A program made the translations under genes and the position numbers. From assembly GCA_918797485.1 (NCBI GenBank), contig CAKKNE010000005.1:2294001-2358000 (forward strand): 64,000 nt of DNA, given 5' to 3'. This DNA is from Pelagomonas calceolata. Lineage: Eukaryota > Sar > Pelagophyceae > Pelagomonadales > Pelagomonadaceae. This document shows positions 4,059 to 60,301 of the stretch, one piece after another. Positions within the stretch are counted from its first letter, which is position 1. Each line of letters starts with the position of its first letter. Under the pieces are notes generated by a model. The model searched no databases. It had not been told where the DNA came from and saw only the letters and a list, made by a program, of their open reading frames with translations.

Positions 4059-4082
4059 GCTAGTGTCTTACAGGCCGCTAGG
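4059..4082 (+). promoter_or_regulatory. Recurrent promoter-type palindrome, copy 1
   Basis: GCTAGTGTCTTACA-gg-CCGCTAG, preceded by CTT. It lies between the divergent starts at 3938 (minus) and 4192 (plus), about 110-120 nt from each. Confidence 0.7.
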
Positions 4083-4191
4083 TCGATGTGCGGTGAGCCA
4101 GCACGCGGTAGGTACACGCAGCAGCACCAGCAGTGCAACATCGCTAAATCGAGTAGTCATCGCGATACACCACCAATTTCGACAGTTAACA

Positions 4192-4968
4192 ATGCTCCGC
4201 CACCTGTACGCAGCAAGACGATGCCTCGCCACAACAGCCCAAAACCACCAACGCGTCGCCAAACTGATCGCGAGGACCGGCGCCATGTCGCGACGAGAAG
4301 CCGACGCCGCCTTGGATGCCGGTCGCATCACTGTAAACAATGCGGTCGCGTCGCTGGGCGACAAGGCGCCGCCCGACGCGCGGCTGAAGCTCGACGGCCG
4401 CGCTTTGAAGGCTGCACCGACGGCGCCGCGCGTCTGGCTCGCCTACAAGCATAAAGGCGAGCAGGTGGCAAAATCAGAGCGGGGCGAGAAGATCCCGAGC
4501 GTGTTCAGCCGCGTGCGCCTCCAGCCGCACGTGTGTGCGGTCGGCCGCCTCGACGTGCAGTCCGAGGGTTTGCTCGTGCTGACGTCGTGCGGCGAACTAG
4601 CGCGGGCCATGGAGCTGCCCTCGAACGAACTGCGGCGGACCTACGAGGTGATCGTGCACGGCCGCGTCACCGCGTCGAAACTGGCGGCGATGCGCCGCGG
4701 CGTCCGCGTCGCCGGCGTCAAGTACGCGCCGATGCGCGTTCTGGTGTCGGACGCGCGAGACAATAGAGCGACGTTGGAACTCCAGTGCCGCGAGGGCAAG
4801 AACCGCATGATTCGCAGGATCTGCGACCACCTCCGATTGCGCGTGTCACGGTTGCGCCGTGTCGCGTTCGGGCCCTTCTCGCTGCGAAAGCACCTGCCCG
4901 ACCGCTTCGCCGTCGTCGAGGCGCGCATCCCGGCGTCGCTGCGGCGACTCGTCGACGACGAGAGGTAG
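4192..4968 (+). CDS. RluB/RsuA-type rRNA pseudouridine synthase, organellar
   Basis: 258 residues. It isomerises a specific uridine in rRNA to pseudouridine. An S4 RNA-binding domain (about residues 22-70: RVAKLIARTGAMSRREADAAL...ITVNN) is followed by the TruB/RsuA-type catalytic domain with GRLDVQSEGLLVLT. The Asp of GRLD (about residue 121) is the expected catalytic residue. RTYEVIVHGRV and CREGKNRMIRRICDHL are the usual later motifs. The start ATG 4192 gives an amphipathic Arg/Ala leader (MLRHLYAARRCLATTAQ), which suggests import into mitochondria or plastid. The open frame runs on to a TTG in the promoter palindrome and is not counted. It overlaps nothing and is convergent with gatB. Confidence 0.88.
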   Translation: MLRHLYAARRCLATTAQNHQRVAKLIARTGAMSRREADAALDAGRITVNNAVASLGDKAPPDARLKLDGRALKAAPTAPRVWLAYKHKGEQVAKSERGEKIPSVFSRVRLQPHVCAVGRLDVQSEGLLVLTSCGELARAMELPSNELRRTYEVIVHGRVTASKLAAMRRGVRVAGVKYAPMRVLVSDARDNRATLELQCREGKNRMIRRICDHLRLRVSRLRRVAFGPFSLRKHLPDRFAVVEARIPASLRRLVDDER

Positions 4969-5060
4969 AAATAATGTGACTGACTTGTTAAAAAAAACGC
5001 CCCTGGCGTCGCGACGCTCCATGTGACGATTGTAAACTTTACACACACAACAAACAACAA

Positions 5061-6488
5061 CTAGAGAAGCGCCTCGTCGAGCGCCTCCCCAAGCTTCTTC
5101 GGGTCCGCGCGGCCCCGGGCCCGCTTCATGCACCTCCCCATCAACACCTTGCGCAGCTTCGTCTTGCCGGCCCGGAACAGCGCGACTTCGTCCGGACTCT
5201 CATCAATAATCTCGGCCACGATGCCACTCATAAAATCGGCGTCGTCGACGCGCGCCAGGCCCCGTTTCTCAATCTCCGCGGCGACGCCAAGATGTTCTTG
5301 AAACAACACGGGCAGGAGCTCCTTCGCCGACCGTCTTGACAATGTCCCCGCCGCGACGGCGCCCACGAGATCGGCCAGGTCCCGCGGCGTGAATGACGAA
5401 GGCAGCTCCGTACTCAAAGCGGCGACCTCGCCGAGCAGCCACCGGGCACTTGTCATTGCGTCGGCGCCGCTATCAACAGCCTCCAGCAAGAACGCGTCGA
5501 GGTCGCGGTCTACCAAAAGACTCGCGGTTTCGCTATCGAGCCCGGCCGCGACGCACCGTCGTCGAGCCGCGCGCGGCGTCGTCTCTTCTATTTGAACGCG
5601 ATCCAACTGCGCGAGCGCCTCTGTTAATGGAAGAGGCGGCAGGTCCGGCTCCGGCGAGAAGCGGTACTCGGCCGCGCCGCCCTTGTCTCTCATAACATAC
5701 GTCTCGGACCCATTCCATCCCAGTGTCTCCCGCTGAACAGTATCACCACTTTCATACAATAAAGCTTGCCTCCGTAGCTCAAAATCACAAGCTAAACGCA
5801 CGGCTCGCAACGAGTTCAAATTCTTGAGCTCGACGCGTTCCCTCACTTCACCTTCTTGCGTTACTGACACATTGACATCGACCCGCAGCTCGCCGTGCTC
5901 CAGGCGAGCTCGAGACGCGCCGCACCTCTTGACGACCTGCTGGAGCTCGCGCACAAAGGCCGCGGCCTCCGTCCCACTCCTCAAATCGGGCTCCGTCACG
6001 ATTTCAGCCAGAGCTATTCCAGCCCGGTTGTGATCCAAAACATCGGTAGTCTTGGCGCTGTCCTCCTCCAAGTGTAGGGAAGTGATGCGGATGGTTCGAT
6101 CGTCAATCTGGACTTTACCGGATCGCGCGAGCGGCGTCCTCGCCTGCGTGATCTGGTAGCCCTTCGGGAGGTCCGGATATTGATAATTTTTGCGGTCCCA
6201 CTCGAGCGTTTCTGCTAGTTCGTCGCAGTCCAAGGCCACTGCTGCCTTTAATCCAAGTAGAGGTGCGTCTGTGGACGCCACGGGCAGGGACCCCGGCTCG
6301 CCTAGACAAACGCCGCAGACGCGCGTGTTCGGGGGCGCCGTCGTCGACGGCGCGCAGCGGCAGAAGGCCTTGGTTGGGGTGTTGAGCTGGACGTGGCACT
6401 CTATTCCTATTACGGGGCGGAAGCCGCTGCTCGCGCGGCGTGTCCTGAGCACTGCCTGCAGCCTGGCAGTGATAACTCGCTGTAGCAT
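5061..6488 (-). CDS. gatB: Aspartyl/glutamyl-tRNA amidotransferase subunit B
   Basis: 475 residues, normal length for GatB. It is part of the GatCAB complex that converts Glu-tRNA(Gln) to Gln-tRNA(Gln) in organelles. Clear motifs: VIGIECHVQLNTPTKAFC, NTRVCGVCLGEPGSLP, ALDC, WDRKNYQYPDLPKGYQITQ, HLEEDSAKT, NRAGIALAEIVTEPD, RVDVNVS, VELKNLNS and the C-terminal YqeY-like tail with a GKTKLRKVLMGRCMK segment. The zinc-type Cys pairs are present (C43/C45 and CGVC). The leader MLQRVITARLQAVLRTRRASSG is Arg-rich with no acidic residue, typical of organelle targeting. It is head-to-head with the gene at 6830, and the spacer holds a degenerate copy of the recurrent palindrome. Confidence 0.95.
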   Translation of the reverse strand: MLQRVITARLQAVLRTRRASSGFRPVIGIECHVQLNTPTKAFCRCAPSTTAPPNTRVCGVCLGEPGSLPVASTDAPLLGLKAAVALDCDELAETLEWDRKNYQYPDLPKGYQITQARTPLARSGKVQIDDRTIRITSLHLEEDSAKTTDVLDHNRAGIALAEIVTEPDLRSGTEAAAFVRELQQVVKRCGASRARLEHGELRVDVNVSVTQEGEVRERVELKNLNSLRAVRLACDFELRRQALLYESGDTVQRETLGWNGSETYVMRDKGGAAEYRFSPEPDLPPLPLTEALAQLDRVQIEETTPRAARRRCVAAGLDSETASLLVDRDLDAFLLEAVDSGADAMTSARWLLGEVAALSTELPSSFTPRDLADLVGAVAAGTLSRRSAKELLPVLFQEHLGVAAEIEKRGLARVDDADFMSGIVAEIIDESPDEVALFRAGKTKLRKVLMGRCMKRARGRADPKKLGEALDEALL

Positions 6489-6829
6489 CGTGCGAGCCCC
6501 CGCAGCGATCGGCGTCGGGAAGCACCGATCAGAATTGATGCTATGCGGCGCCCGCGGCCGCGTTTTATGCCGTAGAGACTGTGCTTTTATTTTTTGGCTT
6601 TGGTGAGTTGAAAGATTAGTGTGTTACTGTTCTAGCATTCGGATTTCAAAAAAGCACGGAGAGTGCGGCCGTCTGCGTACAGGTGGCTCAGCAAAACACA
6701 CTCGCGGGAGCCAGCGACAAGCCCAGCACCTACGCTATCGAGCGCACGAGGCCGCGCTCGTCTAGCGGACAAAAAAACAGACCGCAGCCAGGGCACTGTT
6801 GTACACACGCCGCCGACGCGCGCTACATA
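6489..6829. other. Divergent promoter region gatB / 6830 gene
   Basis: 341 nt between two head-to-head start codons. No coding sequence. It contains a degenerate palindrome copy at 6614-6636. Confidence 0.6.
6614..6636 (+). promoter_or_regulatory. Recurrent promoter-type palindrome, degenerate copy 2
   Basis: GATTAGTGTGTTACTGTTCTAGC on the plus strand, split here as GATTAGTGTGTTAC then TGTTCTAGC. It keeps TAGTGT, TTAC and the closing CTAGC. It lies 126 nt from the gatB start and 194 nt from the start at 6830. Confidence 0.45.
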
Positions 6830-8275
6830 ATGGCCGACGTCAGCGTAAGAGCCGAAGCGCGCAAGGCCCTCGCCCAGTTCGCGCGGCTCTACCCTAAAGA
6901 ACAGAGAGGACAAGTGGTCGACATCGTCTCCGCGTACGGCGTCCGCTGTATTTTGAATGAGGTGGCGCTCGAGCAGCTGAGCCCCGCGCGCCTCGCGGAA
7001 GCGTGCGAGGACGCCATTAGCGAGCTGCCGGCCATGCTGAAGCCGAGACCTAGGGGTGGCCGAGGTGATGTGAAGCCCGAGCCCCCTTCGAGAGTCGCCA
7101 TCGCAAGAAGAGCGCACAGAAGGGTGCGCAAGGATTCCGGCAGGCAGTACCCTTTCGTGGACGACGAGCAGCAGGGCGTGGCCGCCGTGCTGAGCGGAGA
7201 AGCTTCTAGGGATGCGTCCAAGTTCCTCGAAGCCCCGCCGGCCGAGCAAGCGCGGCGGGCGAGGGGCGTCTTCGCTGCTTTACGGACGCAGCCTAATAGA
7301 CTACTGAGGAGCGCTGCTGGTCCCGCCTTAGAAGAGGTGGCGGGCCGGCCCTTCCCGCCGGCCGAAGTTAGACTACTACTGGGAGACCACTGGGACGACG
7401 TCTCGGAGCTCCAGTTCCTCAAGGCGGTCCGACGAGTAGCTCAAGGCGGGTATGACGTGCCCGAGGAGCGGTGGGAGGATTCCTTAAGGGGCGAGTTGAC
7501 CGACGAACCGGCTTACGTGGCACCGACGTCGGCCGTCGCGGCCTTTGCGCAGCCTTCGTTTCAACCCGCCATCGAGGAAGCACCGAGAAGGAAGGCGCCT
7601 AGAGCCTGGGCGCTGCCTCTAGATGCGCCCACGGTGTCCACCGCGGCGAAACAGAGACCTCTCGCTCGCCGAAGGCCGAACCCCACGCGCCAGGCCTGGG
7701 TGTCTGAAGCGAAGAGGAACGTGTCGAGAAAAACGCCGCGCTATCTAGTGAACGTCGAATCGAAGATCAAGGACCAGCTGAACGCTCATAGAGCGCGCCT
7801 GAAGCGGGAGCGGGCCGCGGGTCGGGACGCGCTCGGCGACTCGTCCAATACTCCTCGAGCCGTGGACATCGCGGACGCGTTCCTGCGGAGCGAGGCGCCG
7901 CAGTGGGACTCGACCATTGATGATGCTGCCTTAGATGATTATGGTTTGCCGGCGGACGACCAGCCGGTGCCCGATTACCAGCCGCCCCGGCGCAAGGAGG
8001 GCGAGCGGCCCGACTACTCGTCGTGGGTCGGCGACTACGGGCCGGTCAACGCCAAGGGCGAGAAGCCGATGCCTCCGGCCGACGGCGAGGAGGCGGCCCG
8101 CGACCTCGCGGCACCGGCGGACGTCGACGCGGCGCTGCAGGCCGCGGCGGCGGCGCCCGCCGAAACGGCGGAGGAGGCCGACGATGACGCGCTCGACGAG
8201 GCCTTCCTCCAGGAGCTCGCGGGCGACGGCGCGGAGACGCTGTCGGCCGGCGAGGACGCGGTCCTCGACGACTGA
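6830..8275 (+). CDS. Conserved-looking protein of unknown function, disordered acidic C-terminus
   Basis: 481 residues from ATG 6830; the frame runs upstream to a GTG at 6683 only. The first 60 residues form a possible helical domain (ALAQFARLYPKEQRGQVVDIVSAYG). The middle is basic and Pro/Arg-rich (SRVAIARRAHRRVRKDSGRQYPF; RKTPRYLVNVESKIKDQLNAHRARLKRERAAGRD). After about residue 350 it becomes acidic and Ala-rich. No signal peptide, membrane segment or catalytic motif is visible. I do not recognise the family. The strong GC3 bias and continuous frame support real coding. It is tail-to-tail with the Sel1 gene. Confidence 0.75.
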   Translation: MADVSVRAEARKALAQFARLYPKEQRGQVVDIVSAYGVRCILNEVALEQLSPARLAEACEDAISELPAMLKPRPRGGRGDVKPEPPSRVAIARRAHRRVRKDSGRQYPFVDDEQQGVAAVLSGEASRDASKFLEAPPAEQARRARGVFAALRTQPNRLLRSAAGPALEEVAGRPFPPAEVRLLLGDHWDDVSELQFLKAVRRVAQGGYDVPEERWEDSLRGELTDEPAYVAPTSAVAAFAQPSFQPAIEEAPRRKAPRAWALPLDAPTVSTAAKQRPLARRRPNPTRQAWVSEAKRNVSRKTPRYLVNVESKIKDQLNAHRARLKRERAAGRDALGDSSNTPRAVDIADAFLRSEAPQWDSTIDDAALDDYGLPADDQPVPDYQPPRRKEGERPDYSSWVGDYGPVNAKGEKPMPPADGEEAARDLAAPADVDAALQAAAAAPAETAEEADDDALDEAFLQELAGDGAETLSAGEDAVLDD

Positions 8276-8354
8276 GCCTGCTGTTCCCGCGCCCCCCGAC
8301 GTAAGAGACCCGGGGTGTAAGTCATCTGGTACTATACTTACTTGCACAGCAACA

Positions 8355-9470: not shown

Positions 9471-9566
9471 GGCTGCCAACAGCAGTGCGTGTTGGGGCTG
9501 CGTGTTGGGGCAGCCCTGCCTGCCTAGGCCGCCATGAAAGCGCCTGCTCAAAGGACCCGAGACATT

Positions 9567-9590
9567 TCTAGTGTCTTTACAAACGCTAGC
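9567..9590 (+). promoter_or_regulatory. Recurrent promoter-type palindrome, copy 3
   Basis: TCTAGTGTCTTTACA then AACGCTAGC. It is centred between the divergent starts at 9470 (minus) and 9664 (plus), 97 and 74 nt away. Confidence 0.65.
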
Positions 9591-9663
9591 AGCCGATTTT
9601 GGGCTCGCCTGCGCTTGTTTGCGTGAACGCGCACATAGCTATAGCTGGGAAGATCTTCTAAGC

Positions 9664-12714: not shown

Positions 12715-12783
12715 CCGGTGTTCCCCCTGCGTAAGTTTGGAGACGACGTACGCCATCGCCGCGAAGCGTACTTAATACAAAAT

Positions 12784-13812: not shown

Positions 13813-14034
13813 CGTGGTCGTGTGCTGCTTCCTTAAGACCCCTCTACGCCTCCGGTGCTGCTGTCAGCTCGACAGTGGTTGCCTCGCGTATGCTCTGCAG
13901 ACGCGTATTGATGCGCGTTTCGCCAACTGTGCTGCTCTCCAGTGCGTGTGTGGCAGTGTGCGTTCGTTCAATTCCTCAGCGACGACCCACAGGCGCACCT
14001 TGCTGCAGTCGAGTTTTGAGAGCTCGATGGCGTT

Positions 14035-14058
14035 TCTAGCGTGCGGTGACACACTAGC
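14035..14058 (-). promoter_or_regulatory. Recurrent promoter-type palindrome, copy 4 (reverse)
   Basis: TCTAGCGTGCGG then TGACACACTAGC on the plus strand. Read on the minus strand it starts GCTAGTGTGTCACC. It lies 222 nt upstream of the DnaJ ATG, in the same orientation as that gene. Confidence 0.6.
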
Positions 14059-14267
14059 TCCGTGAGGAAACGTGCACGCAGCTATTTGAGTATCGCTCGG
14101 TTCGCTAATGGTCCAAAGAGACCAATGGGACACTTCCTGGGGGGTGAAAAAATTAATTTTTTAATTCGCGATATTGACGGTCCCGCCATGGCGGGCGCGT
14201 AGCTGGAATCCTGTCGATTCGTGGTCCTGAAGTCTCCCCGAGGCCGCCTAGGGTCGGAACAAGACAT

Positions 14268-14428
14268 GGGTAGTCGCCTACGCCGCATGCACCGCCGCTT
14301 CCAGAGTAAGATACATCTCCCATGGTCCTTTGCGCTATACCTCTGTTGGCCATGATTTGCCAAAGATTTCGATCCAGAGCTCTCTGGGGAGCTCCAAGCA
14401 CGGGCGCATGCGGCGTAGGCGACTACCC
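14268..14428. repeat. Foldback-type inverted repeat
   Basis: The left arm 14268-14290 (GGGTAGTCGCC then TACGCCGCATGC) is repeated as its exact reverse complement at 14406-14428, with a 115-nt spacer. Similarity continues weakly a few bases inward. It may be a small foldback or MITE-like remnant, or a structured RNA. I see no target-site duplication outside the arms. Confidence 0.8.
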
Positions 14429-16632: not shown

Positions 16633-16936
16633 TGTGGACTTGCGGCGGCTCGGCGCTTACGGCGCGCGTGCAGACCGTGGAAGGCTCACTTTTTCAAATG
16701 ATAAATGATTTGCCACGACTCGCAAGGCGTCGTGGGCCAGTGGGGCGATGCAGGCGGCGCTTTACGCCTCTTGCCGTGTGCAAATAATCCGCACGTGCGG
16801 ATGGCGGCGCGGCTTGGCGCGGCCCAGGCTTGCTTGCTTGCTTGCTAGTATGTACACGCCGCTAGCGAAAGCCGCTCCTAGCACCATAACAACAACCCTA
16901 TTCCGAGCACCTAAACCCGTTTTACAAAGGGCACAT
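16633..16936. other. Spacer between Tudor-like start and JmjC 3' end
   Basis: 304 nt. It contains a GCTT microsatellite (about 16828-16844) running straight into a palindrome copy at 16844-16866. Otherwise nothing is recognised. Confidence 0.5.
16844..16866 (+). promoter_or_regulatory. Recurrent promoter-type palindrome, copy 5
   Basis: GCTAGTATGTACAC then GCCGCTAGC, preceded by a (GCTT)n run. It lies 212 nt upstream of the minus-strand gene starting at 16632. Confidence 0.55.
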
Positions 16937-23143: not shown

Positions 23144-23529
23144 CCCGAAATTCGGAAAGCTGTTGCGTCGCGCGACGCGTGTTCCCGCCCCTGCCTATTG
23201 TATATTTTATCTATCTAGCACAAGGGGGAGGCGCAAGCCCCGACGTCCATCGGAGCTCCTGGTGGGAGACCGCGCATCAGGCTACCCCATCACTTCGCTG
23301 CTAGTGTCTCACTGGCGCTAGCTGCTCCGTCGTCCCGGCTTTTTGCTCGTAGCGCAGTGCTAGAGGAGCGATTGCGTTTAGCGTTGCCGAATTTGTGCGC
23401 TGCCACAGTTGCAAGGGCGAGACCAGCGATTGGGCGCCGACCTTTTAAGCCCAAGTGCCAAACTGCTGCACCAACCTCCAGAGCAGCCGTTGCCCGCGCG
23501 CGGCATCATTTGTGTGATTACAACGCGAG
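23144..23529. other. Spacer ankyrin / deaminase genes
   Basis: 386 nt between co-directional genes. It contains a palindrome copy at 23300-23322 and a TATATTTTATCTAT stretch at about 23200. Nothing else is recognised. Confidence 0.5.
23300..23322 (+). promoter_or_regulatory. Recurrent promoter-type palindrome, copy 6
   Basis: GCTAGTGTCTCACT then GGCGCTAGC. It lies 208 nt upstream of the deaminase ATG and in the same orientation. It is not part of a divergent pair. Confidence 0.62.
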
Positions 23530-24376: not shown

Positions 24377-26053
24377 TCAATCATCAATGACGATCACGTC
24401 GTCGCCGTCGTCGTCCTGCTGCTGCGGGACGTCCGCGACCCGGAGCCTCTCCCGGCCCGGCGGCGCGCGCCGCCACGCCGCGATCCACGCCTCGAGGAGT
24501 CGTACCGTCGCGGTCTTTGCGTGCTCGCCGTCCTCGAGGAGCGGCGCGCCGCCCGGGCGCGCCGCGAGCGCGCGCTCGGCGCCGCAGCCGCCGTCGCGCA
24601 GGCGCCCCTGCCAGAAGACACACGAGTTGACCTTGAGGAGCTTCTTGCCCGACGCGAGCGCGGCCTGGGAGAAGGCAACGTCCTCGGCCCACCGGAGCCG
24701 CGGCTCGAAGCTCAGGCCGGCGCACTGCGCGAGCTCGAAGCGGCAGAACTTGAAGATGGACGTCGCCTTCGCGTCCACGGCGAAGCGCTCGCCGCGCGAC
24801 ACGGTGCCCTTGCCCGACGACGCGATGCCGACGGCCGCGTAGTCGCGCGCGACCTTGAGGCGCCCGACAGTCCGGAGCACATCAAGGAACGACGCCGCCA
24901 CGTCGTCGGCCTGAAGGCCCGAGGGGCCCCACTGCTTGACGCTCCGGACGTTGTCGTCGACCATCCAGCAGCGCGGCACGCAGCACGGCGCCCGGTGCGC
25001 GACGCCCGGCGCGCGACTCAGTAGCACGGCGCCGCGGCAGAACTCGAGGACGCAGAAGCGCGCGAAGCCCACGCGGCGGCCCGCCTCCGGCAGCGCGAAG
25101 AGCAACGGCGTCGTGCGAGGGTCGTCCCCGAAGCCCACGACGTCGCGGTACGCGTCCGCCTCCGCCGGGTCGACGACGTAGCAGAACAGCGTCGCTGCGT
25201 CGGCCGCGGATTCTTCTGCAAAACCGCGGAAGTCCAGGAGCTTCCCGGGCGCCGCGCGCCCGCGCGTCGGGCAGAAGACGACGTGGCGGTCCTTGCCGGC
25301 GTCGCGGTTCGCGACATACCGCGCGAAGCTCTCGACCTGGGCGCGGCCGCCGGACACGTTCACGACGGCCGGCGTGCCCTGGGACAGGCCCGGACCGAGC
25401 GTTGGCACTTGGAACGCGTAGTCGACGACGACGGAACCGTCGGCCAAGGGCTTCGGTCCTAGAGTCGCACCGTCGGCGGCCACCGCCGTCGCGTCGTCGT
25501 CCGGGCCGTCGCGCGGGAAGTATCGGCGCGACGGCGCGGGCATACGCTGGATGCGCGTCGCGTCGTCCGCAGCGTACGGCGTCGCGGCCGCGTGGAGCCG
25601 CGCGAGGTCTCGCCGAATGGCATCCTGGCGCGCGCGCTCGCGCTCGCGGTCGGGCGCGAGCGGTGCGCCGCCGACACGCAGCCCGGCGCCCTCGTTGTTG
25701 CCGTGGAACGCGGGACCGGCAACCCTGGGTCGCTTCGGCGGCGGGTTGTCGACGCCCTCCAGGCGGGCGATCGCCGCGTTGCGTGCGGCGTCGCGCGGGT
25801 TGACCGAACCGCTCCCGAGGCGCTGGCCGTCGGACGGGTCCTGGCCGCCGCCGCGTCCCCGGCCGCCTGCCGCCCGACCGCCGGTGCCGCGCCTTACCTT
25901 ATCCACAAAGCCGTCGCAGTCGTTGCACCACACCACGTCCTTGTCGGCCTCCTTTTTACTTTTGCGGTACCGGACGCTCTTGCGCGGGCACGGCGGCTTG
26001 CAAATCTTGAGGTCGCCTCGGCCGCCGCTGCTAGGGCGGATCGTGCGCGACAT
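24377..26053 (-). CDS. Possible TAGT/GREB1-type GT-A glycosyltransferase
   Basis: 558 residues from ATG 26053; the frame also has ATG 26350, but that extra 99 codons lacks the gene's codon bias. The N-terminus has four Cys (CKPPCP...WCNDC, about 20-50) that may bind zinc. A disordered Arg/Gly-rich linker follows. The C-terminal 330 residues read as a GT-A-like fold: DRHVVFCPTRGRA, CCVPRCWMVDDNVRSVKQW with a DD pair in the DxD position, KATSIFKFCRFELAQCAGLSFEPRLRWAEDVAFSQAALASGKKLLKVNSCVFW. The WMxDDN and K(F/T)...WAED(V)xF pattern is like the TET/JBP-associated glycosyltransferases, which include the GREB1 C-terminus. If correct it might glucosylate modified DNA bases; this assignment is from memory of the family and unconfirmed. 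Confidence 0.45.
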   Translation of the reverse strand: MSRTIRPSSGGRGDLKICKPPCPRKSVRYRKSKKEADKDVVWCNDCDGFVDKVRRGTGGRAAGGRGRGGGQDPSDGQRLGSGSVNPRDAARNAAIARLEGVDNPPPKRPRVAGPAFHGNNEGAGLRVGGAPLAPDRERERARQDAIRRDLARLHAAATPYAADDATRIQRMPAPSRRYFPRDGPDDDATAVAADGATLGPKPLADGSVVVDYAFQVPTLGPGLSQGTPAVVNVSGGRAQVESFARYVANRDAGKDRHVVFCPTRGRAAPGKLLDFRGFAEESAADAATLFCYVVDPAEADAYRDVVGFGDDPRTTPLLFALPEAGRRVGFARFCVLEFCRGAVLLSRAPGVAHRAPCCVPRCWMVDDNVRSVKQWGPSGLQADDVAASFLDVLRTVGRLKVARDYAAVGIASSGKGTVSRGERFAVDAKATSIFKFCRFELAQCAGLSFEPRLRWAEDVAFSQAALASGKKLLKVNSCVFWQGRLRDGGCGAERALAARPGGAPLLEDGEHAKTATVRLLEAWIAAWRRAPPGRERLRVADVPQQQDDDGDDVIVIDD

Positions 26054-26653
26054 TCTTGGTGCTTTCGTGAGTCTCGCCTCGCCGCGGCGTCTCTGTGGCC
26101 CGCAAAGCTTAGTCGGGTCACCAGGCTCTCCGTAGCTTTTTTGCGCTCTCAGGGTGCCGTTGCTTAAAAAAGCTGCAGCAGAGCGTTGCCAAGGACCGAT
26201 GCGCAGCGAAACGTTACTCGCGAGCACACGTGCGGCCTTGCACGGCGTATGCCAAGCCCTCCAACCAGGCTCGAACTTTGCGTCGAGGCTTGAGGCGGGT
26301 TTTGCAGGCATTACCAATGGAGGCGTCCTCCGTGGTGGTGGAAACGGCATCTCCAGCGGTCAGAGAGACGAGACTGAAAAACCCGCACCCTGGGATTCAT
26401 CTGCGTCTCGAGCCGCGCGCACGCTGTCTGGCGCCGCTGGAGTGCCACGGTGCCAACAGACTAGTTGTACGAACCAAGCAGCCCCTGTTCACAGCGCCAC
26501 GTTCGCGGCGGCGCGCGATTTGCCGCTGTAAAAGAGCTAAACAGCAAAAAGGTTACAGCCAAATAACCCACGCGAACGGGTAGACGCGCGGCGCGCACAA
26601 GCTCGAAACACGCGAACGGGCCGACGCGCCTTACAAAGTCAACAAAGACGACG
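26054..26653. other. Divergent spacer glycosyltransferase-like / FHA genes
   Basis: 600 nt between head-to-head starts. Two CACGCGAACGGG-x-GACGCG words repeat near 26570-26625, just before the FHA gene. No palindrome copy was found. The long frames here lack coding bias. Confidence 0.5.
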
Positions 26654-29693: not shown

Positions 29694-30050
29694 AAGGGCT
29701 AACGGAGCTCAACCACTGCTCGCGTTAAACAACGAGCTAGCGTCCTGTAACATACTAGGGAACGCGAAGAGGAATCAAAGCGTCCAGAAAGGCAGTGGAT
29801 TCACGAACACACGATGCGACGGGTGGGTTTGGAATAATGAGGCTCGTCGTGTGCAGGCAAAGCAGGGATAACCCGGTTAGCCGGCTCTCTCCGATACGCT
29901 AAGCCGAGACGCGTTGTCTCTGTTTTAGACACGCATCGACCACATAAATACCGAGGGCCCGAGAGATCTGCGTCGCGAAGGCCGAGCGGGCGCGAAAACT
30001 ACCGGTGGCACGCGTCGCACTTTCGGGATCGGGAGGAGCGAGCTCGAGTC
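29694..30050. other. Divergent spacer PhyH-like / 30051 gene
   Basis: 357 nt with a palindrome copy at 29736-29758. It may also hold the missing 5' exon of the plus-strand gene; the frame is open from about 29841 but has no ATG. Confidence 0.45.
29736..29758 (-). promoter_or_regulatory. Recurrent promoter-type palindrome, copy 7 (reverse)
   Basis: GCTAGCGTCCTGTAAC then ATACTAG on the plus strand. It lies 43 nt upstream of the PhyH-like start, the shortest spacing seen. Confidence 0.65.
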
Positions 30051-31977: not shown

Positions 31978-32308
31978 GGTTGATGTCGAGGCGCCGCAGG
32001 CGTCACTAATGGTGCTGTGGGATTAATTTTGTAGCGCTTACTGATACATTCACTGCATTTAAGGCCCCGATCTATCGGGATAGCGAATCGACTTTTGGCT
32101 AGCGTCCTGTAAGACACTAGCAAGCTTGGCAAGCCGAGACCGCGGCGGCCGCCTTGTGGTCCGCAGCAGTCGTCGCGCGTCTCAACTCCAACCGTAGACG
32201 CAGCGCGCAGCCGTGCCTCGCTTGACTACCTCCAAGAGAGCACCCCTCTCCAGGGCCTGCAGCAGGTCACCGCGCAGACGCCGCCGCCGCGTCCGCAAGC
32301 GGTGATAC
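31978..32308. other. Divergent spacer saccharopine-DH-like / TFB5
   Basis: 331 nt with a near-consensus palindrome copy at 32098-32121 roughly midway. Otherwise nothing is recognised. Confidence 0.6.
32098..32121 (-). promoter_or_regulatory. Recurrent promoter-type palindrome, copy 8 (reverse)
   Basis: GCTAGCGTCC then TGTAAGACACTAGC on the plus strand, followed by AAGC. It is one of the closest matches to consensus. It lies 121 nt from the minus start (31977) and 188 nt from the plus start (32309). Confidence 0.75.
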
Positions 32309-32638: not shown

Positions 32639-32643
32639 TCACC

Positions 32644-33423: not shown

Positions 33424-33854
33424 TCCTTCCTTTCCTTCCTTTGGGGGTTTGTAATTCTTAGTGGTAGATTTGGTCTATCTTCACCACCCGGGCGTCGAAC
33501 GGCAAGCTTCCTCACGGACGGCGCCAGCGGCCGGCGCGCGGGCTTCGCGGCGGCGGCCTGCGCGGTTGCGCTCGCGTCTAGTCCATCCCACCTTTCTCCC
33601 CTGGACACCTCCGCGTAAAATTTGCTCCCAAAACGTTCCCGCAAGCTTGCTAGTGTCTTACATACCGCTAGCTTTATAGGAATGCTCTGCAGATTTTTGG
33701 GGTGCGCATCGTGCTCTTTGACGGCCGCGCACGCTGCCTAAAAGACATTACGAAAGCCAACCGCTGCGCTACGAGTAGCTACAACACACTAATCTTCCAG
33801 CACACGTCGACTCGCAACGCGTTACTCTGCTACAGCCCAGCAGCCCACAGCATC
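33424..33854. other. Spacer protease / 33855 gene
   Basis: 431 nt between co-directional genes. It contains a near-consensus palindrome copy at 33649-33672 followed by TTTATAGG. An upstream continuation of the 33855 frame to 33702 lacks coding bias. Confidence 0.55.
33649..33672 (+). promoter_or_regulatory. Recurrent promoter-type palindrome, copy 9
   Basis: GCTAGTGTCTTACA-ta-CCGCTAGC, preceded by AAGCTT. It lies 183 nt upstream of ATG 33855 in the same orientation. Confidence 0.75.
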
Positions 33855-38720: not shown

Positions 38721-39219
38721 CGTTTCGTTTACGCGGCTGGCGCGTGCAACAAGAAACAGTGAGGCAGAGAGGCAGCAGTTTTTTAGCTAGCGGTGCGGGC
38801 GGCGAGCGTGGCACAACGCGAAGGACTAGGTGGGTGTCCTGGGCGTCGTACGAGCGTGTGGTTCCCTTACGGTACGAGCTCTGTGCCGAGCAATTGCCGT
38901 CCAATGGACAGCGGCGGCGCGGGCTCGAAGATGGAAGCGACCGGATGTCTCCCCGTCGCGCGTCCGGAGACAGTGTGCGCGACGGCTAAAACGTCTTCTG
39001 GAAAGCTTGCTTGCTTGCTAGTGTCTTACAGGCCGCTAGCTCTGCGGGATCAGGCCTTGTCTTTGCGCAGCGTTTTGCTTGCCGCATAGCTGCATCCTTG
39101 CGTAAAGACCAGTGTATTTCATTTGGCAAACATACTGCATCCGCACACGGCTGCACGCTGTCTGCTGCATCTCGAGACCGCTACCAGCCTCTGCAGCCTC
39201 TGCTCGCCCAGCAGCCTGC
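38721..39219. other. Divergent spacer EF-hand-like / ketopantoate reductase
   Basis: 499 nt with a consensus palindrome copy at 39017-39040 preceded by a GCTT triplet run. No other feature. Confidence 0.6.
39017..39040 (+). promoter_or_regulatory. Recurrent promoter-type palindrome, copy 10
   Basis: GCTAGTGTCTTACA-gg-CCGCTAGC, exact consensus, preceded by GCTTGCTT. It lies 180 nt from ATG 39220 and 297 nt from the minus start at 38720. Confidence 0.8.
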
Positions 39220-44391: not shown

Positions 44392-44415
44392 TCTAGCGGC
44401 TTGTAAGACACTAGC
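44392..44415 (-). promoter_or_regulatory. Recurrent promoter-type palindrome, copy 11 (reverse)
   Basis: TCTAGCGGC then TTGTAAGACACTAGC on the plus strand, followed by AATATATAG. It lies 237 nt upstream of the sulfotransferase ATG and over 600 nt from the minus-strand start, so it probably serves the plus gene. Confidence 0.7.
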
Positions 44416-44651
44416 AATATATAGCCTTGAGAGAGACAAAAAATTAATTAAATACTGTGTCCTCTGCCCTCCTTGGGGCAGCGTTGGCACCAAATCCATG
44501 CATTGGTAGCCGCGCAACGAGCAACTACGACCGGGCAGCCCCGATGATGCATCGATAGCGCGCGATCGTAATCTTGTGCACGTGTTGTCACCTCATTCAG
44601 CCTCGAGGCTGTGCCGCACTGGTCATCCTAACCGACTGAGCGGGGAAAAGA

Positions 44652-45779: not shown

Positions 45780-45784
45780 TCGGC

Positions 45785-47835: not shown

Positions 47836-47859
47836 GCTAGCGGCCTGTAAGACACTAGC
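47836..47859 (-). promoter_or_regulatory. Recurrent promoter-type palindrome, copy 12 (reverse)
   Basis: GCTAGCGG-cc-TGTAAGACACTAGC on the plus strand, exact consensus in reverse, followed by AAGC. It lies 136 nt from the minus start and 316 nt from the plus start. Confidence 0.8.
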
Positions 47860-48088
47860 AAGCAGACGTAGCCATCGAAAAAGAGCTATCCAACGCGCGC
47901 AACAACCGAGAAGGCTCGACTGGAGCAGTGCAAAAAATCGCGCGCGTCGAGGAGCTCCAAAGCAGACATCCAAGCGCTGCGCGGCTTTCCAAGCAGCACA
48001 CCGCCGTGCAGGCTGCCGATCCACCGCGCAGGACTCGCGCACGACTCGGCCGCGGCACGCTCGCGCTGCCCCGGTCGCCGCCAGTGCC

Positions 48089-48165: not shown

Positions 48166-48174
48166 GCACGCACC

Positions 48175-49884: not shown

Positions 49885-50136
49885 TTTATCCCGTTACACG
49901 TGCGGGGGAAAGGGGGCGGGGCCGCGGGGGAAAACACACTTACCAGTGAAAACACTAGCCTGAGGCGCAGAAAAAATTGAGCCCGGTTTACATACCTTGC
50001 CCCTTGCCCTCGGCCCGCGCGACGTGCCGGGCGATTCTGGAGAATCGCCAAATCAACCGATCATTACTAACCAGTACTAACCAGCCAGTGCTGACGAGTC
50101 GGACCGAGTAGCTGGACTAATTTATCCCGTTACACG
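49875..50136. repeat. Direct repeat across the DNAAF4 stop codon
   Basis: A 26-nt exact repeat (GCTGGACTAATTT then ATCCCGTTACACG) is at 49875-49900, containing the DNAAF4 TAA, and at 50111-50136. Similarity continues about 30 nt into G-rich sequence. Between the copies lie a perfect hairpin (GGCGATTCT-gg-AGAATCGCC, 50030-50049) and two ACTAACCAG words. Confidence 0.85.
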
Positions 50137-50171
50137 GCGCGGGGGACAGGGGCTGGGGGGGGAACACGTGT

Positions 50172-56100: not shown

Positions 56101-57917
56101 GACTCTTCCGCTTCGTCAGACTCTTCCTCTTCAGACGCCTCGTCCTCGTCCCCCGCCTGCAGCGCGGCCCAGCCCGACCAGTCGGCCGTGCCCGGGACGA
56201 CCGCATACGAGTCGGGGAGGCCGTCCTTGATCTTCGCAATAAACACTTTCAGATCCTTCGACAAACCAATGAGGTACAACCCCTTGTTCTCGTCGTCGTC
56301 GATACGCGTCGTCCCATCAGCTTCCGAGACGTAGGCGTAATCTAAAATCTCGTCGTCGAACAATGATGAGCTAACAGCAAATTTATTTGTATCCGAACCG
56401 TGGAACGTCGGCGTGTCACTGTTGATGCCCTCGACGACATGTATTCTGGTATCCTTTTGGCCCAGATTCGACGAGTAGTAGTAGTTCACCCCACCGACGG
56501 CGCCGGCATTGGCCTTCACTTCGAGTTCTGTGTCAAAACAAACCTTGGACTCGGAATCGAACCGACAGAGCCGCTTGTCGAACTTGCCGATCGCATAATA
56601 CGTCGTCGGATCATCAACAGGAGAACCTAGTAACCCGACGGCGTTCACATGTTGCGACTCGCCCTCGTCGTCGAGGGCAAACTCCAATTCAAACATTTCC
56701 TCGTACTCGCCAGTTTCTAAGTCAAGAGTCATGGCCTTGTAGGGGTCGTCGCCGTCCTTCATGACCTGCACCGGCGAGAAGAAGCCGGCGCAGTCCCACG
56801 CGGCTACGCTCATGTCGGTCCAGCAGACCTCGTCGTCCGGGCACGTGACGGGCTCGGGTGTCGGCGCGTACGTTTCTGATATAGTCCAGACCACGGGGCA
56901 GTTCATGCCGTCATTACTTTCAGCTTTCGCCGCGTCCGCGACGCGCGTGAGCGTGGCTGTCGAGGAATCGCATTTGGCGTGGTCGGTCGGGTCGTCGCCG
57001 CTGTTCCAGCAGTCCTCGTCGACGGTAATCGGCAAACCGATCTGGAACAACCCTTCGCCGTCATTGCCGGCGAAATAGAGCGTCGCGGATTCACCATCAG
57101 CCGTGTCGTAGGCGAAGGCCGCGCCGAACGCGATCCGGTCAGACTCGTCGGCTCCGTTCCAATTGACACTCGAGTCGACGACCGCGTACTTGTCGGGCGC
57201 GCCACTATCATCGAGGTGCACGATGAGCACCTCGAAGCCCTCGCCCAGGCCGATGAGGTAGGACTGCTCGTCCTCGCCGTCGTCGATCAACGTCGCGCGC
57301 TCCTTGACCGCGACGAGGTCCAGGACCTGCCCCTTCCACACGTCGGTGTCGTCGTCTCCCGTGCCCTGGAAGGCCAAGTTGTCTTCATCATAATGAAAGT
57401 CCGGCGTGTTGCCGTTGATGCCCGAGACGCGGTAGATGAACGTTCCGTCGTCGTTGTCGCCCAGATTACGAGAATAATAATACGTGTTGTCGAGGATGAC
57501 GCCCGCGTTCGGGTTGCTATTTCCCTGGAGCGGACTCTCAAAACACTCCTTGTGGTCGGCCTCGCCCGCGTCGATGCGACACAGGTGGGGAGCCTCGTCG
57601 TCGCCGTCCATTTGGACGGCCGCGAACGAGAAGAACTCGTCGTCGCCGTCTTCACTGGTATGGTGGTAGATCGCCGCGGCGTTGATCTTCTTCACGTCCT
57701 CCAGCTCGAGGCTGAAGATGTTCTCGTAGGTGCCCGTGGCCACGTCCAGCTTCTCAACGACGTAGATGTCGTCGTCATTCTTATAAACTTGGATGGGCGC
57801 CGGCTCCTCGTCGCAGTCCCACACACCAAACTTCTCGTCGTCCCAGCAGAGCTCGGTGACGGGGCAGTCCTCCGCTCTTACTGACACGGCGAGCGCCAGT
57901 ATTGATAGGAGCCTCAT
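50172..57917 (-). CDS. Giant single-pass surface protein with four large tandem repeats
   Basis: 2,581 residues, no intron in 7.7 kb. The start is ATG 57917 (MRLLSILALAVSVRA signal peptide). Four homologous domains of about 300 residues follow (roughly 13-340, 353-773, 870-1160, 1193-1506). Each has PIQV(M/Y)K, a TGxYE turn, INA(A/V), NAG...YYY, a FH(x)D, IDDG...YL(I/V)G(L/M), (F/L)EVL(V/I)V, KYAV, (S)FGAAF, ITV(D/P)..CWN and SNDG(M/L)NCP, and looks like a beta-propeller-type fold. Pro/Thr linkers separate them; repeat 2 carries a long SDEAEESD acidic insert. Then come a SEA-like stalk, a WSC-like module (about 2106-2192), a membrane helix (about 2310-2333) and an FGAP-rich cytosolic tail. 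Probably a cell-wall or adhesion protein; the repeat family is unknown to me. Confidence 0.85.
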   Translation of the reverse strand: MRLLSILALAVSVRAEDCPVTELCWDDEKFGVWDCDEEPAPIQVYKNDDDIYVVEKLDVATGTYENIFSLELEDVKKINAAAIYHHTSEDGDDEFFSFAAVQMDGDDEAPHLCRIDAGEADHKECFESPLQGNSNPNAGVILDNTYYYSRNLGDNDDGTFIYRVSGINGNTPDFHYDEDNLAFQGTGDDDTDVWKGQVLDLVAVKERATLIDDGEDEQSYLIGLGEGFEVLIVHLDDSGAPDKYAVVDSSVNWNGADESDRIAFGAAFAYDTADGESATLYFAGNDGEGLFQIGLPITVDEDCWNSGDDPTDHAKCDSSTATLTRVADAAKAESNDGMNCPVVWTISETYAPTPEPVTCPDDEVCWTDMSVAAWDCAGFFSPVQVMKDGDDPYKAMTLDLETGEYEEMFELEFALDDEGESQHVNAVGLLGSPVDDPTTYYAIGKFDKRLCRFDSESKVCFDTELEVKANAGAVGGVNYYYSSNLGQKDTRIHVVEGINSDTPTFHGSDTNKFAVSSSLFDDEILDYAYVSEADGTTRIDDDENKGLYLIGLSKDLKVFIAKIKDGLPDSYAVVPGTADWSGWAALQAGDEDEASEEEESDEAEESDETEESDEAEASDEAEEEEEDSEEGEEEDSEEGEEEDSEEGEEEEDSEEDAGDAPTYQPTENPERRLAGAPTDERRLQDAPDDPGTYGAAFAYEPSDGSMTKVYFASNEGTGLLQLELPLTIDDDCWNSGLDASEHTECDASAQLTWISASDEADSNDGLNCPKGDIFETVAPSVTPSYKPTKAPTGPSTKEPTTAVPTTATPSYSPVPFPTPKPTPEQPAPTSVPTYAPQVMPTSPEPSPQPTLYMPSPAPNYGPSAKPTMLTCEPFDCAAYSEPIQILQRDKDEDMYSVCELNTVTGEYDVLYDIDWFDGHINAAGMFVGVDGSRYAYASFGGYLCAFDAHKKCCLDTPLAEPKPNAGTLVHTDYYYSKDPGGGTERGFHWVQNVTGTPIFHDDVLFKISASVYEGTVLDVATVDEFFVGEELIDDGVTNGRYLVGMAEGFEVLVVRCDETGYPSAYAVLPSVIDWSFGEVQDEGSFGAAYTFMSEKGIHVLFSDNKGHGLFEVGFPMTIPDECWNTGTDTSSHVACSNTVNVQWLLNTADASSNDGLNCPDSLQLFPPTLQPTSAQPTPDLYSPTQPPSIEPVGSVDCAAAGNPLQVMKYDDDDEYSVRMLDYATGKYEVLYSLDWFDGHINAVGMVYDSTKNAYYNVAGITEDGVSQLCRFGGNVERIECYGELEVTKPNAGAVLVDRYYYAKDPGNKDEKGIYWVDHVDSTSPEFHNDVKFVIKTDLYEDGVLDFAPLREELDDSGVGRTGLTVTSNFIDDGVTGDYLIGLGEHLEVLVVYIDSEGYPSKYAVLPSTLDGDANPSSQEIGAAWTYLTVESSGAYNAELLFSSNEDKGVFTTTLPITVPSACWNEGLDTSTHTFCDAATSVPLVTKYKGPGDDVKSNDGMNCPFAVNKDPTPSPVIAPKDPTPAPVATPATPAPVATPATPAPVPAPTVAVPAPTATPSILVSSQLVIDDVPSDMDDDALTDIVSAALVDTLSGVREADDVLACDVTATTTVTTTAAPTAMAVEAAEQASVISGSVAFAGLSQPDAEANKAVIEDGLARVAGVDADACSVTSISAARRRRLDDGAGVTVDYEIYVSLETAQDVAMALADAAADPTLVDTAIAEAAAAAGASSTFAACTTASLTSEVVTAASDAYSFSFTYNVPYSYSYASPDLAGLECFNETLTAFSCYLDLYPDDDAAMLEALQDPTLMGDDDRWNASGTDDDVSLSDDVTSCIDVQADAGFAEACDAQPKIVQEACGDKFDAQAECIFNSWTTAMGLECDLDCALTREFRRKLGVLDWARRLFSPSTTRPATTSPAAIRRRAQDAALDVLARPSPTTKRRLDVSPSKTKRAPFASLRHRHKGRRGLQTEVSQPKTVSFTVRLWGVGQSGDTAASELATAAADGSLTTSLATAATDAGYDDGPACSGEANSLEALQAVTIAEGAPSAAPVIAPTPAPSAKPTWTLKPTLDAYEQCLEPACSCDATLAACTGDDEDDDPDEYCDNGGSDLSSDIAGTTNHGSGVGWCMSTLDEKVGCTASPAECWAACESSHGDRLVAIDWYADGSCWCQDSCPCMDFDVSPVVITRADMTLPQECTLCDYYEHALYGDCAGSDASDACQSDYYSAIECHYEAQLAELGETCPTQTCVEALATPAPTPQPSTASPVPAPTIPVTQAPTVKGSLDPLLAQASSNNNGGQNGFEDEVQSAGSPTMIALTCIGGIVVVGAAGVFLTRSREGAKEKARKARFDAINSESNQYATRYDAEEGDAAEDFGEADWAKIASKEDKVHIEDSATKPLYDDGAPNAPFPPPPPDEEAPMSPGDIDRFLGGDDDQWPEDEGKAQWPKEKMSAGDVDAFLGPDSPGNDSDSSDGAEAPPPPSSSASSVAPPLDADDAAEIAAMASSSDPFGAPANPFAAPAAPAVADDGATSPAADFAADAFGADPFGAPPEPTATAGAADAPAADPFAADPFGAPPPDPAVS
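55940..56160. repeat. Minisatellite encoding the acidic insert of repeat 2
   Basis: Imperfect 24-30-nt units of TCCTC/GAGTC and CGTCAGACTC encode (E)EDSEEGEE and SDEAEESDE runs within the second domain of the giant surface protein. The other three domains lack it. Confidence 0.85.
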
Positions 57918-58622
57918 GACCGAGAAATTTGGTTGTCTGGCTGCCCGGCTCGGCACGTCACCAGCGCTGCGCGTGCCGCGTCGCGTCGAAACGGCGAATC
58001 ACACCAGGGCTGCCCGTGCATGCGCCGCCACGCGCAATGCCAGCACCGTCGCGGCCGTTTTGCGCTGGTTTGCCAAGCCTAAAAAAGTGAGCGCCGGCTA
58101 GTGTGCAAAAATTGGCCGACGGGGTCCTGGACCGGCCCGGAGGGAGTCGTGGGGTTGTCCTGTGTGGTTTTTTTTTAGACCTCCCTCCGGCACCCAATTA
58201 CTAGTAGGGAGCGACCTCGCCAGGCTGGAGACAAAGCGGACTGCAAAAGCGTGCCAGTCTGCGTCCGAGATCGAAATACGAGCTGCCTACGACGTAGTTT
58301 GAGCTTCGAATGAATCGCTGTCGAAGCCGCTGCGCGAAACGATGACGCCTCGCCGAGTATGGCCCAATGCCCGCTGCACTGCACGTCTCGGCCGCTCAAG
58401 CGCTCCCGGCGCGATCACTGGTCGTGCCGAGAGCTGTAATGAGCAGCGGTGGCGTCTGCGCAGCGGTGTGGCGTTCGCTGGGCCGTGCGGCGGCAAGCGC
58501 GGCACCACCTCGACGTTCAAAACGTCTGAATAGCACGCCGCCGCCGCGCGCACGCCGCCGACGCGCCACGCCTTGACTCACCGCTCGATCCAACACAGGC
58601 CGCCCAGAGGGAGACCACAAAG
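57918..58622. other. Divergent spacer giant surface gene / eL40
   Basis: 705 nt. It holds a poly-T run (58167-58176) and the CCAAT-type motif at 58194-58206. It has only a partial hint of the main palindrome (GGCTAGTGTGCAAAA near 58095). No coding sequence. Confidence 0.5.
58194..58206. promoter_or_regulatory. CCAAT-type motif shared with 44017
   Basis: CCAATTACTAGTA, preceded by CCTCCGG-cac. It is the same core as at 44017-44033, and likewise 240-280 nt upstream of a minus-strand surface-protein gene that carries a WSC-like module. Confidence 0.45.
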
Positions 58623-58784
58623 ATGGTCTACGACCCGTCGCTGGCCGCGCTGGCCAAGACGTACAACTGCGACAAGATGATCTGCCGCAAGTGCTACGCG
58701 CGCCTGCCGCCGCGCGCCAAAAACTGCCGGAAGAAGAAGTGCGGGCACACGAACCAGCTGCGACCGAAGAAGAAGCTCAAGTAA
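58623..58784 (+). CDS. RPL40: Ribosomal protein eL40, not fused to ubiquitin
   Basis: 53 residues, too short for most gene finders. The sequence contains [31 protein letters not shown] and [16 protein letters not shown], a near-perfect match to eL40 including the zinc C-x2-C and C-x4-C pairs (C21, C24, C35, C40). In most eukaryotes eL40 is made as a ubiquitin fusion cleaved after Gly-Gly. Here an ATG (AAAGATGG context) stands at the junction, giving MVYDPSL, and no ubiquitin coding sequence precedes it in any frame of the 700-nt spacer. The stop is TAA 58782-58784. Confidence 0.92.
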
Positions 58785-58847
58785 ATGAGCAAAGGGGTTC
58801 TTTCGTCTAAACTTGTTCGCTCTATATATTTCTACAAATCACATCCT

Positions 58848-59948
58848 TTAATACTCGCGCGGCAGCAGCTCCTGCGACCGCCGCAGCGATCCCGTCCGGC
58901 CGTGCGAGTCGACGGGCGCCGACGTCCCGGGACCGATCGCCGCCGGCGGCTCAACGACCCAGTCGACGACTTGCGTCGCGGAGCTCTCCCAGGAGTCGTC
59001 GTGCGTCTCGTACTCGCCCCGCAGGAAGCGCGTGCCGTCCGACGCGCACGTCTGCGCGAGGAACGACCCGCTCGCGTGCGCGCCGTACAACGCGTCCACC
59101 ACGACGCGCGCGCCGAGCCGCGGCGGCCGCGGCCGCAGGCCGCCTTCCCAGACCACGGGGTTGTGCCGCGTCCGGAGCTGCCCCGGCGCCACCGCAAGAA
59201 AACGCATCTCGGGCCGCTGCTGCGCCATGATGCGCGTCCACGCGTTCAGCGCGCACTTCGAGAGGCCGTGGGCCGGCGTCGCCAAGGTCGTGTAGGGGCC
59301 GTAGTCGTCGTCTAGCAGGTCCGCGACCTCGTAGGCCGCGCGCCGAACGGCCTCTATATCATTGGCTTCGAAGGCGTCCCTATGTCTCGGCTCCAAGAAC
59401 CCCAGCGTCCGCGCGGCCTGGCGCGACGACACGTTGACGACCGTCGCGTCGTCGGCGAGGAGCGGCAGGAACGCTGTTGTCACATTCATAGCCCCTTCAA
59501 AATTCACCGCGAGGGACGCCCGTGCCGCCGCGGACTTGCGGTAGATGTCGGCCTCGGCGTCCAGGAAGATGCCCGCGTTGTTGACTATAGCATCGAGGTA
59601 CTCTCGCGACTTCTGCACGTGGCCGTCGTCGCGCGCGGCGAGCGTCTTGCTGACGTAGTCGACGGCTCGCTTGATCGACTCGCCGTCGCTCACATCTAAC
59701 TCGACGGCCTCGCTCCGGTCGCCGCCAAGGTCCCACAATTCCCCGCAGCACAACGCCGTGCCCGCTTCGAAGTCGCGGCAGCCGAGGTAGACCTTGTCGA
59801 CGTCGTCGCGTTCCAGTAATGCTTTCACTATTTCCAAGCCCAGGCCCCGGTTGGCGCCGGTGACGAGGACGCGTCGCGGTGTCCGCACGCCTTCGAGGTC
59901 CTCTGTTGTCAGAGTCGTGCCCTTGCGCAGCACTTGCGGGGAGTCCAT
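58848..59948 (-). CDS. Short-chain dehydrogenase/reductase, catalytic Tyr replaced
   Basis: 366 residues, carbonyl-reductase-like SDR. TGANRGLGLEIVKAL (about 30-44) is the dinucleotide-binding loop. LDVSDGESI, DAIVNNAGIF (about 120-128) and VVNVSSRQA (Ser about 174) are in place. The active-site YxxxK reads H227-GLSK231: His stands where Tyr is expected, within TPAHGLSKCALNAWTRI. The rest of the helix and APGQLRTR (PG motif) are conserved. Activity may be lost or changed. The C-terminus extends about 60 residues beyond a typical SDR. No presequence. It is tail-to-tail with eL40 and head-to-head with the F-box/kelch gene. Confidence 0.85.
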   Translation of the reverse strand: MDSPQVLRKGTTLTTEDLEGVRTPRRVLVTGANRGLGLEIVKALLERDDVDKVYLGCRDFEAGTALCCGELWDLGGDRSEAVELDVSDGESIKRAVDYVSKTLAARDDGHVQKSREYLDAIVNNAGIFLDAEADIYRKSAAARASLAVNFEGAMNVTTAFLPLLADDATVVNVSSRQAARTLGFLEPRHRDAFEANDIEAVRRAAYEVADLLDDDYGPYTTLATPAHGLSKCALNAWTRIMAQQRPEMRFLAVAPGQLRTRHNPVVWEGGLRPRPPRLGARVVVDALYGAHASGSFLAQTCASDGTRFLRGEYETHDDSWESSATQVVDWVVEPPAAIGPGTSAPVDSHGRTGSLRRSQELLPREY

Positions 59949-60301
59949 CGTGGTCCGGGCAGCCCCCCAACGCGTCGGTCCTAGCCTAGCCTAGCCTCAG
60001 CTTAACCGACGGGTTTTTGCACGCGGTCTTGCGGGACCCCTCCCCGCCCCAGGGGACTCGTCGCAGAGGTCGTGCAGCGATGTGCGGGAAAAAAAAAGGG
60101 AACCGCCGCTGTCGGTGCTTGGTGATTGCTAGTGTCTTACATTACGCTAGCTGGCCGGACCCGCGGCTCATTTTTGCCGCATTTGTGCCAAGGAAGCGCG
60201 CTGTGGCTCGCTCAGAGAGCCCTTGTCGTCATCCGAACGCGTGGACTCGTCGCCGTCGTGCAGCGGCACAGTCCCATCTGCACACTCACATTTGCTGACC
60301 C
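59949..60301. other. Divergent spacer SDR / F-box-kelch gene
   Basis: 353 nt. A CTAGC triplet run (59983-59998) lies near the SDR start and a palindrome copy at 60128-60151. No coding sequence. Confidence 0.6.
60128..60151 (+). promoter_or_regulatory. Recurrent promoter-type palindrome, copy 13
   Basis: GCTAGTGTCTTACA-tt-ACGCTAGC. It lies 180 nt from the SDR start (minus) and 151 nt from ATG 60302 (plus). Confidence 0.75.

Follow-up and report, generated by a model that had tools for sequence, protein, structure and literature searches.

A near-palindromic CTAG-pair element in the 5' spacers of Pelagomonas calceolata as a putative binding site of a promoter-marking protein

The vertebrate CGCG element (TCTCGCGAGA) has been described as a palindromic promoter motif with bidirectional transcription, enriched at ribosomal protein and housekeeping genes (PMC6192621). 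In yeast, the general regulatory factors Reb1, Abf1 and Rap1 are reported to contribute to nucleosome-depleted regions (PMC11069190), and in the oomycetes a core promoter block of 16-19 nt, INR+FPR, lies near start sites and is reported as well conserved in about 13% of genes (PMC3599244). Here we describe a near-palindromic element of 24-26 bp from the pelagophyte alga Pelagomonas calceolata, recognized in a 64,000-nucleotide stretch of contig 5 (bases 2294001-2358000, hereafter the window) of a genome of 32.4 Mb in 8 contigs, of which, according to the genome paper, six are nuclear and two organellar (plastid and mitochondrion), with 16,667 genes (PMC9481584). We consider it likely that a dedicated and abundant nuclear protein binds this element in a sequence-specific manner, marking about half of the promoters and probably also opening them.

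The element is built from two CTAG half-sites, CTAGTG (followed by TCTTACA) and, on the opposite strand, CTAGCG, which stand 14-18 bp apart, mostly 18, and nearly always occur together. We scored it in 164 kb, consisting of the window and ten 10-kb stretches chosen by round coordinates (the unselected set), using a matrix with a variable gap that was seeded from eight window copies, iterated on the 164 kb and applied at a cut-off of at least 16 bits. This matrix was refined on the same sequence that it scored, for which ten first-order Markov shuffles served as the control. Thirty sites were found, 12 of them in the window, against 0.0 in the ten shuffles. The scores of the 30 go down to 20.1, and the best match outside them reaches 11.5, with nothing between 12 and 20; six matches score 6-12, where chance would give 3.3 at 6 or above. 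One of the ten sampled stretches (L046, 51% GC) holds no site.

The distance between the starts of the two CTAGs in the window is most often 18 (10 pairs), followed by 16 and 17 (2 each), with any other value at 0-2. In the 164 kb the counts, which include some chance pairs, are 18 pairs at 18, seven at 17, four at 16, four at 14, three at 13 and one at 15; spacings of 14, 16 and 17 are found at other places in the genome too. The gap is 2 bases long in 20 of the 30 matrix sites, 1 base in eight and absent in two; the 2-nt gap of the motif as first annotated is thus not rigid. A shorter, more fully palindromic class is also present, e.g. CTAGCGTGTCGACATACTAG. Among 30 exact copies the edges are sharp and the flanks unrelated, with little information beyond TTG before the element and C after it. 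In addition, the word GCTTG is concentrated directly in front of the left arm: over 64 sites it was counted 36 times within the closest 20 bp, compared with 0-8 times in each of the other bins.

Genome-wide, the near-exact pattern CTAGYGTCTTACANNCCGCTAG has 790 copies and its reversed control none. A looser pattern, GCTAGYGN{4,20}CGCTAG, has 2,984 matches against 131 for its control; as it fits 19 of the 30 matrix sites, the total by this route would be roughly 4,500. Extrapolation from the sample density of 30 per 164 kb, with 18 of the 30 coming from the 100 kb that lie beyond the window, leads to about 5,900. We therefore estimate a total of 4,500-6,000. As a side observation, two copies in the same orientation lie 37 bp apart in one divergent spacer (C1:575885-575946, L006).

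Genes were mapped with a three-periodic hidden Markov model (HMM) trained on the fetched sequence, without RNA evidence. Predicted coding sequence makes up 72% of the 164 kb, yet none of the 30 sites falls in it: 18 are in divergent spacers, 11 in tandem ones, one at the end of a stretch and none in a convergent spacer, and all 29 flanked by genes on both sides are 5' of at least one of them. Counted by spacer of at least 60 bp, 18 of the 33 divergent spacers, 11 of the 28 tandem ones (a lower bound, as the tandem spacers of this map include introns) and none of the 23 convergent ones contain the element; looser criteria give 21, 12 and 0. Similarly, 81 unique sites over the alga's own loci, a set that includes loci fetched for matching and excludes the duplicates L007, L009, L022 and L056, comprise 43 divergent, 30 tandem and eight end sites and no coding one. 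Over all own loci, none of 41 convergent spacers carries a site, and one does by looser criteria.

Within the spacers the strand is random: in tandem spacers the element is on the gene strand in 14 of 26 sites, and in divergent spacers 21 of 37 sites have the nearer gene on their 3' side. Coding starts are a median of 204 bp away, with quartiles of 164-276 (121 gene sides), and sites in divergent spacers lie a median of about 200 bp from each start. Moreover, these sites are centred: the smaller side takes up a mean fraction of 0.387 of the spacer against 0.25 for random placement, a value that 0 of 10,000 simulations reached (n=37; the test drew on 64 of 71 sites, seven being dropped as duplicates or for lack of 300-bp flanks). 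Moving outward from the element, the A-over-T skew on the gene's sense strand is -0.04 to +0.09 at first and +0.12 to +0.24 beyond about 120 bp, which weakly suggests that the element lies upstream of transcription starts and not on them.

These data bear on two other explanations. The initial annotation had favoured a core promoter element; by this we mean a sequence that positions the pre-initiation complex from a constant distance to the start site. Confinement to 5' spacers and presence in 18 of 33 unselected divergent spacers would agree with this, but the strand is random and the distance to the start broad (coding starts being used in place of true start sites), and for these reasons the explanation fails; a single copy in the middle between two divergent genes and a skew that sets in no closer than about 120 bp speak against it as well, and we regard it as quite unlikely. 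The same central, orientation-free placement of a long and specific sequence could be expected of an architectural or insulator site that parts neighbouring transcription units, with promoter activity as a by-product. However, no unselected convergent spacer has the element, and a copy placed centrally in a promoter that two genes share does not part a gene from its own promoter, so that an insulator also seems improbable.

A further explanation is a small dispersed mobile element or its footprint, either resembling a miniature inverted-repeat transposable element or left by excision, with a preference for open promoter chromatin. The thousands of copies, many of them near-identical, the near-palindromic ends and a slight surplus of 3-base flanking repeats over shuffles are what such an element would produce. 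The genome harbours other dispersed families, and introner-length introns have been reported from it (PMC9481584). Indeed, introner elements with many dispersed copies, some families having inverted ends, have been described from P. calceolata and Aureococcus (PMC9481584, PMC9860276), with a peak of intron length near 210 bp in P. calceolata (PMC9481584). They resemble our element in having many dispersed copies, but introners are introns, whereas the element has 24-26 bp and occupies 5' spacers. An introner acting as a spliced intron was considered and rejected, with 18 of the 30 sites lying between divergent genes; for the 11 tandem sites the HMM leaves an intron possible.

No clear excess of target-site duplications was found at the 81 own sites tested at five offsets: flanking repeats of at least 3 bases occur in 2.5-7.4% of them against 1.6-5.0% in shuffles, the longest having 7 bases, and at the very edge the difference is tiny (3.7% against 3.1%). 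Columns are unevenly conserved in the 20 unselected sites with a 2-base gap, the left CTAG being invariant (chi-square p=1.6e-7, with small expected counts and sites picked by a matrix that rewards conserved columns). This would not be expected of neutral repeat decay, because such decay would be even. Lone halves are few, only one of 28 left halves scoring at least 16 lying outside a full site, and where the gap changes in length both arms are retained.

Retention outside P. calceolata also argues against a mobile element. Two pattern scans of viral contigs gave 0 matches, and a scan of prokaryotic genome contigs gave two, both in contigs filed under Spirochaeta metagenome-assembled genomes (MAGs). 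Contig NZGT01000041.1 (L049) has 82% identity to contig 6 of P. calceolata over 7.8 kb and encodes an importin-like protein, and it is on these grounds algal. The element is present in three further contigs of its MAG. Two of them, L070 and L072, show collinearity with contig 6, at identities of 80-87% and 83-90%, and the third, L071, has only short repeat-like matches in P. calceolata, none of them syntenic, so its site is not comparable. Together these four contigs of a sister alga have eight sites of at least 16 bits, all noncoding, seven 5' of a gene and one at a contig edge; four of the eight brought their contigs in through the pattern search and the other four are unselected. A match in a predicted coding segment of L071 scores 10.1, below the cut-off.

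At the importin locus (L049/L051) the element follows the importin stop codon in both species, in the same orientation, 74 bases after the stop in the sister and 17 in P. calceolata, where the next gene begins about 290 bp on; the spacer cannot be aligned between the species except for the element itself. Four of the six strong sites of L070 and L072 (585-610, 2685-2709, 2198-2223 and 4290-4313) lie within an alignment to P. calceolata or form its end to within two bases, and the other two (461-485 and 5352-5376) fall in spacers that do not align. From a near-identical strain, contig CAJWEZ010000013.1 (L050; 96% over 2043-3044, with bacterial genes further on) carries an identical element at the locus shared with L055, with a 3-base indel directly adjoining it and changes beside but not inside it. 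Thus one strain locus and one sister locus keep the element, a small number and found through the element itself. From these few loci we infer that selection may hold the element while its flanks drift.

Missing duplications, the column pattern and retention in the sister, at one locus despite a diverged spacer, weaken the mobile-element explanation, which we judge unlikely. Together with the absence from predicted coding sequence and convergent spacers, the missing duplications and sister retention support a promoter-linked functional element over a dispersed repeat, which was also the preference of the initial annotation.

The inverted arms and the variable gap, which could serve as a loop, would also suit an RNA hairpin in the 5' leader with the stem GCTAGYG/CRCTAGC. 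The orientation relative to the gene is random, and this reading fails for that reason. Moreover, the base after CTAG is T on one arm and C on the other in 84 of 98 noncoding pairs with a spacing of 14-18, a fraction inflated by copies fetched by exact match; read from one strand this combination would pair as U-G, but from the opposite strand it is a C-A mismatch, and it is kept in place of a Watson-Crick pair. We find an RNA element very improbable.

We return to the putative binding site of a dedicated nuclear protein. A dimer or a multi-domain protein would bind the element, and the bound factor would keep the middle of the promoter free of nucleosomes; polymerase II could then initiate to either side or to both, perhaps at 60-120 bp from the element. 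Such a mode of action would resemble that of the yeast general regulatory factors or of the vertebrate CGCG element. Like the former, the element has specific sites in many promoters. Sites of yeast general regulatory factors are generally orientation-free, and the motifs of Reb1, Abf1 and Rap1 have no known sequence relation to the element. Two features to be expected of such a site are a specific long motif that favours 5' spacers and avoids coding sequence, for which we found 29 of 29 sites 5' and 0 of 30 coding, and activity in either orientation, with which the placement would agree (gene strand in 14 of 26 tandem sites).

With the CGCG element ours shares the character of a palindromic promoter motif; bidirectional drive, described for the CGCG element, would be a putative feature of ours. 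The two differ in that the CGCG element has 10 bp of unrelated sequence and ours 24-26 bp, two arms, the T/C asymmetry and a flexible gap. Membership in the CGCG element was rejected, as the matrix does not fit the consensus TCTCGCGAGA. The oomycete INR+FPR block is likewise a long promoter motif in another stramenopile, but it is a core element near start sites, and its sequence is not known to be related. It is possible, though we would not favour it, that a lineage-specific general promoter-organising factor, unrelated to those known, sets the open middle of about half of pelagophyte promoters. It would read the asymmetric CTAG pair (CTAGTR on one arm, CTAGCG on the other) across a span that may vary from 14 to 18 bp, either as a heterodimer, perhaps, or by discriminating T from a C that can be methylated.

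Several points weigh against a dedicated binding protein, in addition to the limits already given for the gene map, the tandem share and the column test. A rigid dimer would not usually tolerate gaps that differ by as much as 4 bp. Nor is the element universal, being present in 18 of 33 divergent spacers, or 21 by looser criteria. Left halves scoring at least 12 stand alone in seven of 35 cases, where 3.6 would be expected by chance. Beyond 120 bp the skew stems in part from coding sequence, which enters from about 150 bp, since 164 bp is the lower quartile of the distance to coding starts. Flanking repeats of 3 bases are slightly above shuffles at all five offsets, with 2-6 of the 81 sites each. 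Finally, retention in the sister with letters read on both sides comes from one locus, and at the four aligned sites of L070 and L072 the element would be intact in P. calceolata by alignment coordinates.

We found no description of the element among the matches listed in the open-licence literature, most subscription papers being outside its coverage. A search of that literature for GCTAGTGTCTTACA gave no match, and for five words of the element none of the matches listed contained the 22-mer and none was by title on an algal promoter element. Matches listed in other searches did not include a paper on what marks promoters in pelagophytes either. The main text of the P. calceolata genome paper does not contain 'motif', 'palindrom' or 'promoter' (PMC9481584). 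An element in thousands of promoters predicts where promoters lie and can serve as a bait for the factor, and it offers a clean test of promoter sharing by head-to-head genes in compact genomes. If it is true that one factor serves half of the genes, this would be an independent case of the strategy of yeast general regulatory factors.

In the window, the 12 strong copies comprise nine in divergent and three in tandem spacers by the HMM gene calls. The divergent ones are, with matrix scores, at 4057..4082 (39.7), 9565..9590 (33.4), 39015..39040 (43.0) and 60126..60151 (43.1; plus-strand gene 886 bp off) on the plus strand, and at 14035..14060 (25.3; plus-strand gene 1,496 bp off), 29736..29761 (32.8), 32098..32123 (43.1), 44392..44417 (40.5) and 47836..47861 (43.0; between a mitochondrial-carrier gene and a TPR/CS-domain gene by Pfam) on the minus strand. 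The tandem ones, all on the plus strand, are at 16842..16866 (25.7; -,- spacer) and 23298..23322 (27.0; +,+ spacer), both with a gap 1 base shorter, and at 33647..33672 (43.0; +,+ spacer). The initial annotation had listed 13 copies, and all 13 places hold the sequence or a variant, but the one at 6614..6636 (GATTAGTGTGTTACTGTTCTAGC, plus strand, divergent spacer) is weak and doubtful: its left half scores 12.1, below the cut-off, and 3.6 left halves as good are expected by chance per 164 kb. Counting it, the proposed eight plus and five minus orientations agree with ours, and the location solely in spacers, with none coding or convergent, is borne out. Checks that it had suggested gave the following: near-exact copies show no strand bias (381 and 409 per genome strand), no unselected site lies in predicted coding sequence, and the element is present in spacers of the sister alga.

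A Pfam scan covered 30 of the 35 listed window segments, and among the genes served we saw no common pathway. They encode GatB, THO complex subunit 1, a DnaJ protein, a pseudouridine synthase, a cytidine deaminase-like protein, PhyH, a mitochondrial carrier and ketopantoate reductase, and several have no Pfam match. The genes for a proton pyrophosphatase and an RRM protein are among those in the window that lie more than 700 bp from any copy. A predicted protein at 24380-26083 has a weak match to the TET-associated glycosyltransferase family (E 1.6e-6, 28.6 bits, cut-off 27.5), of interest for DNA base modification in an alga.

In spacers without the element, the top recurring words (from GTGTGGAAATCA and CGATGGCGTG) resemble dispersed repeats or intron ends, and overlapping words assemble by eye to TTGATTTCCACACAGG, which resembles the 3' end of an introner-type intron. 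Among the foreign contigs, the MAG Spirochaeta sp. MED672 has at least three contigs collinear with P. calceolata (80-90%) and a fourth, L071, that carries the element as well as repeats in common with the alga; these contigs are contamination in the reference collection. Contig L050 looks chimeric, with 2043-3615 matching the alga at 90-96% and bacterial-type MgtE and MurB genes from about 4.1 kb on. Finally, L072:299-455 is a repeat of about 157 bp, an introner-like size, with at least 39 copies in P. calceolata that are 80-88% identical to the sister copy, and L070:1484-1545 and 2251-2308 are short dispersed repeats whose best P. calceolata copies are 93-97% identical, against 80-87% for syntenic DNA.

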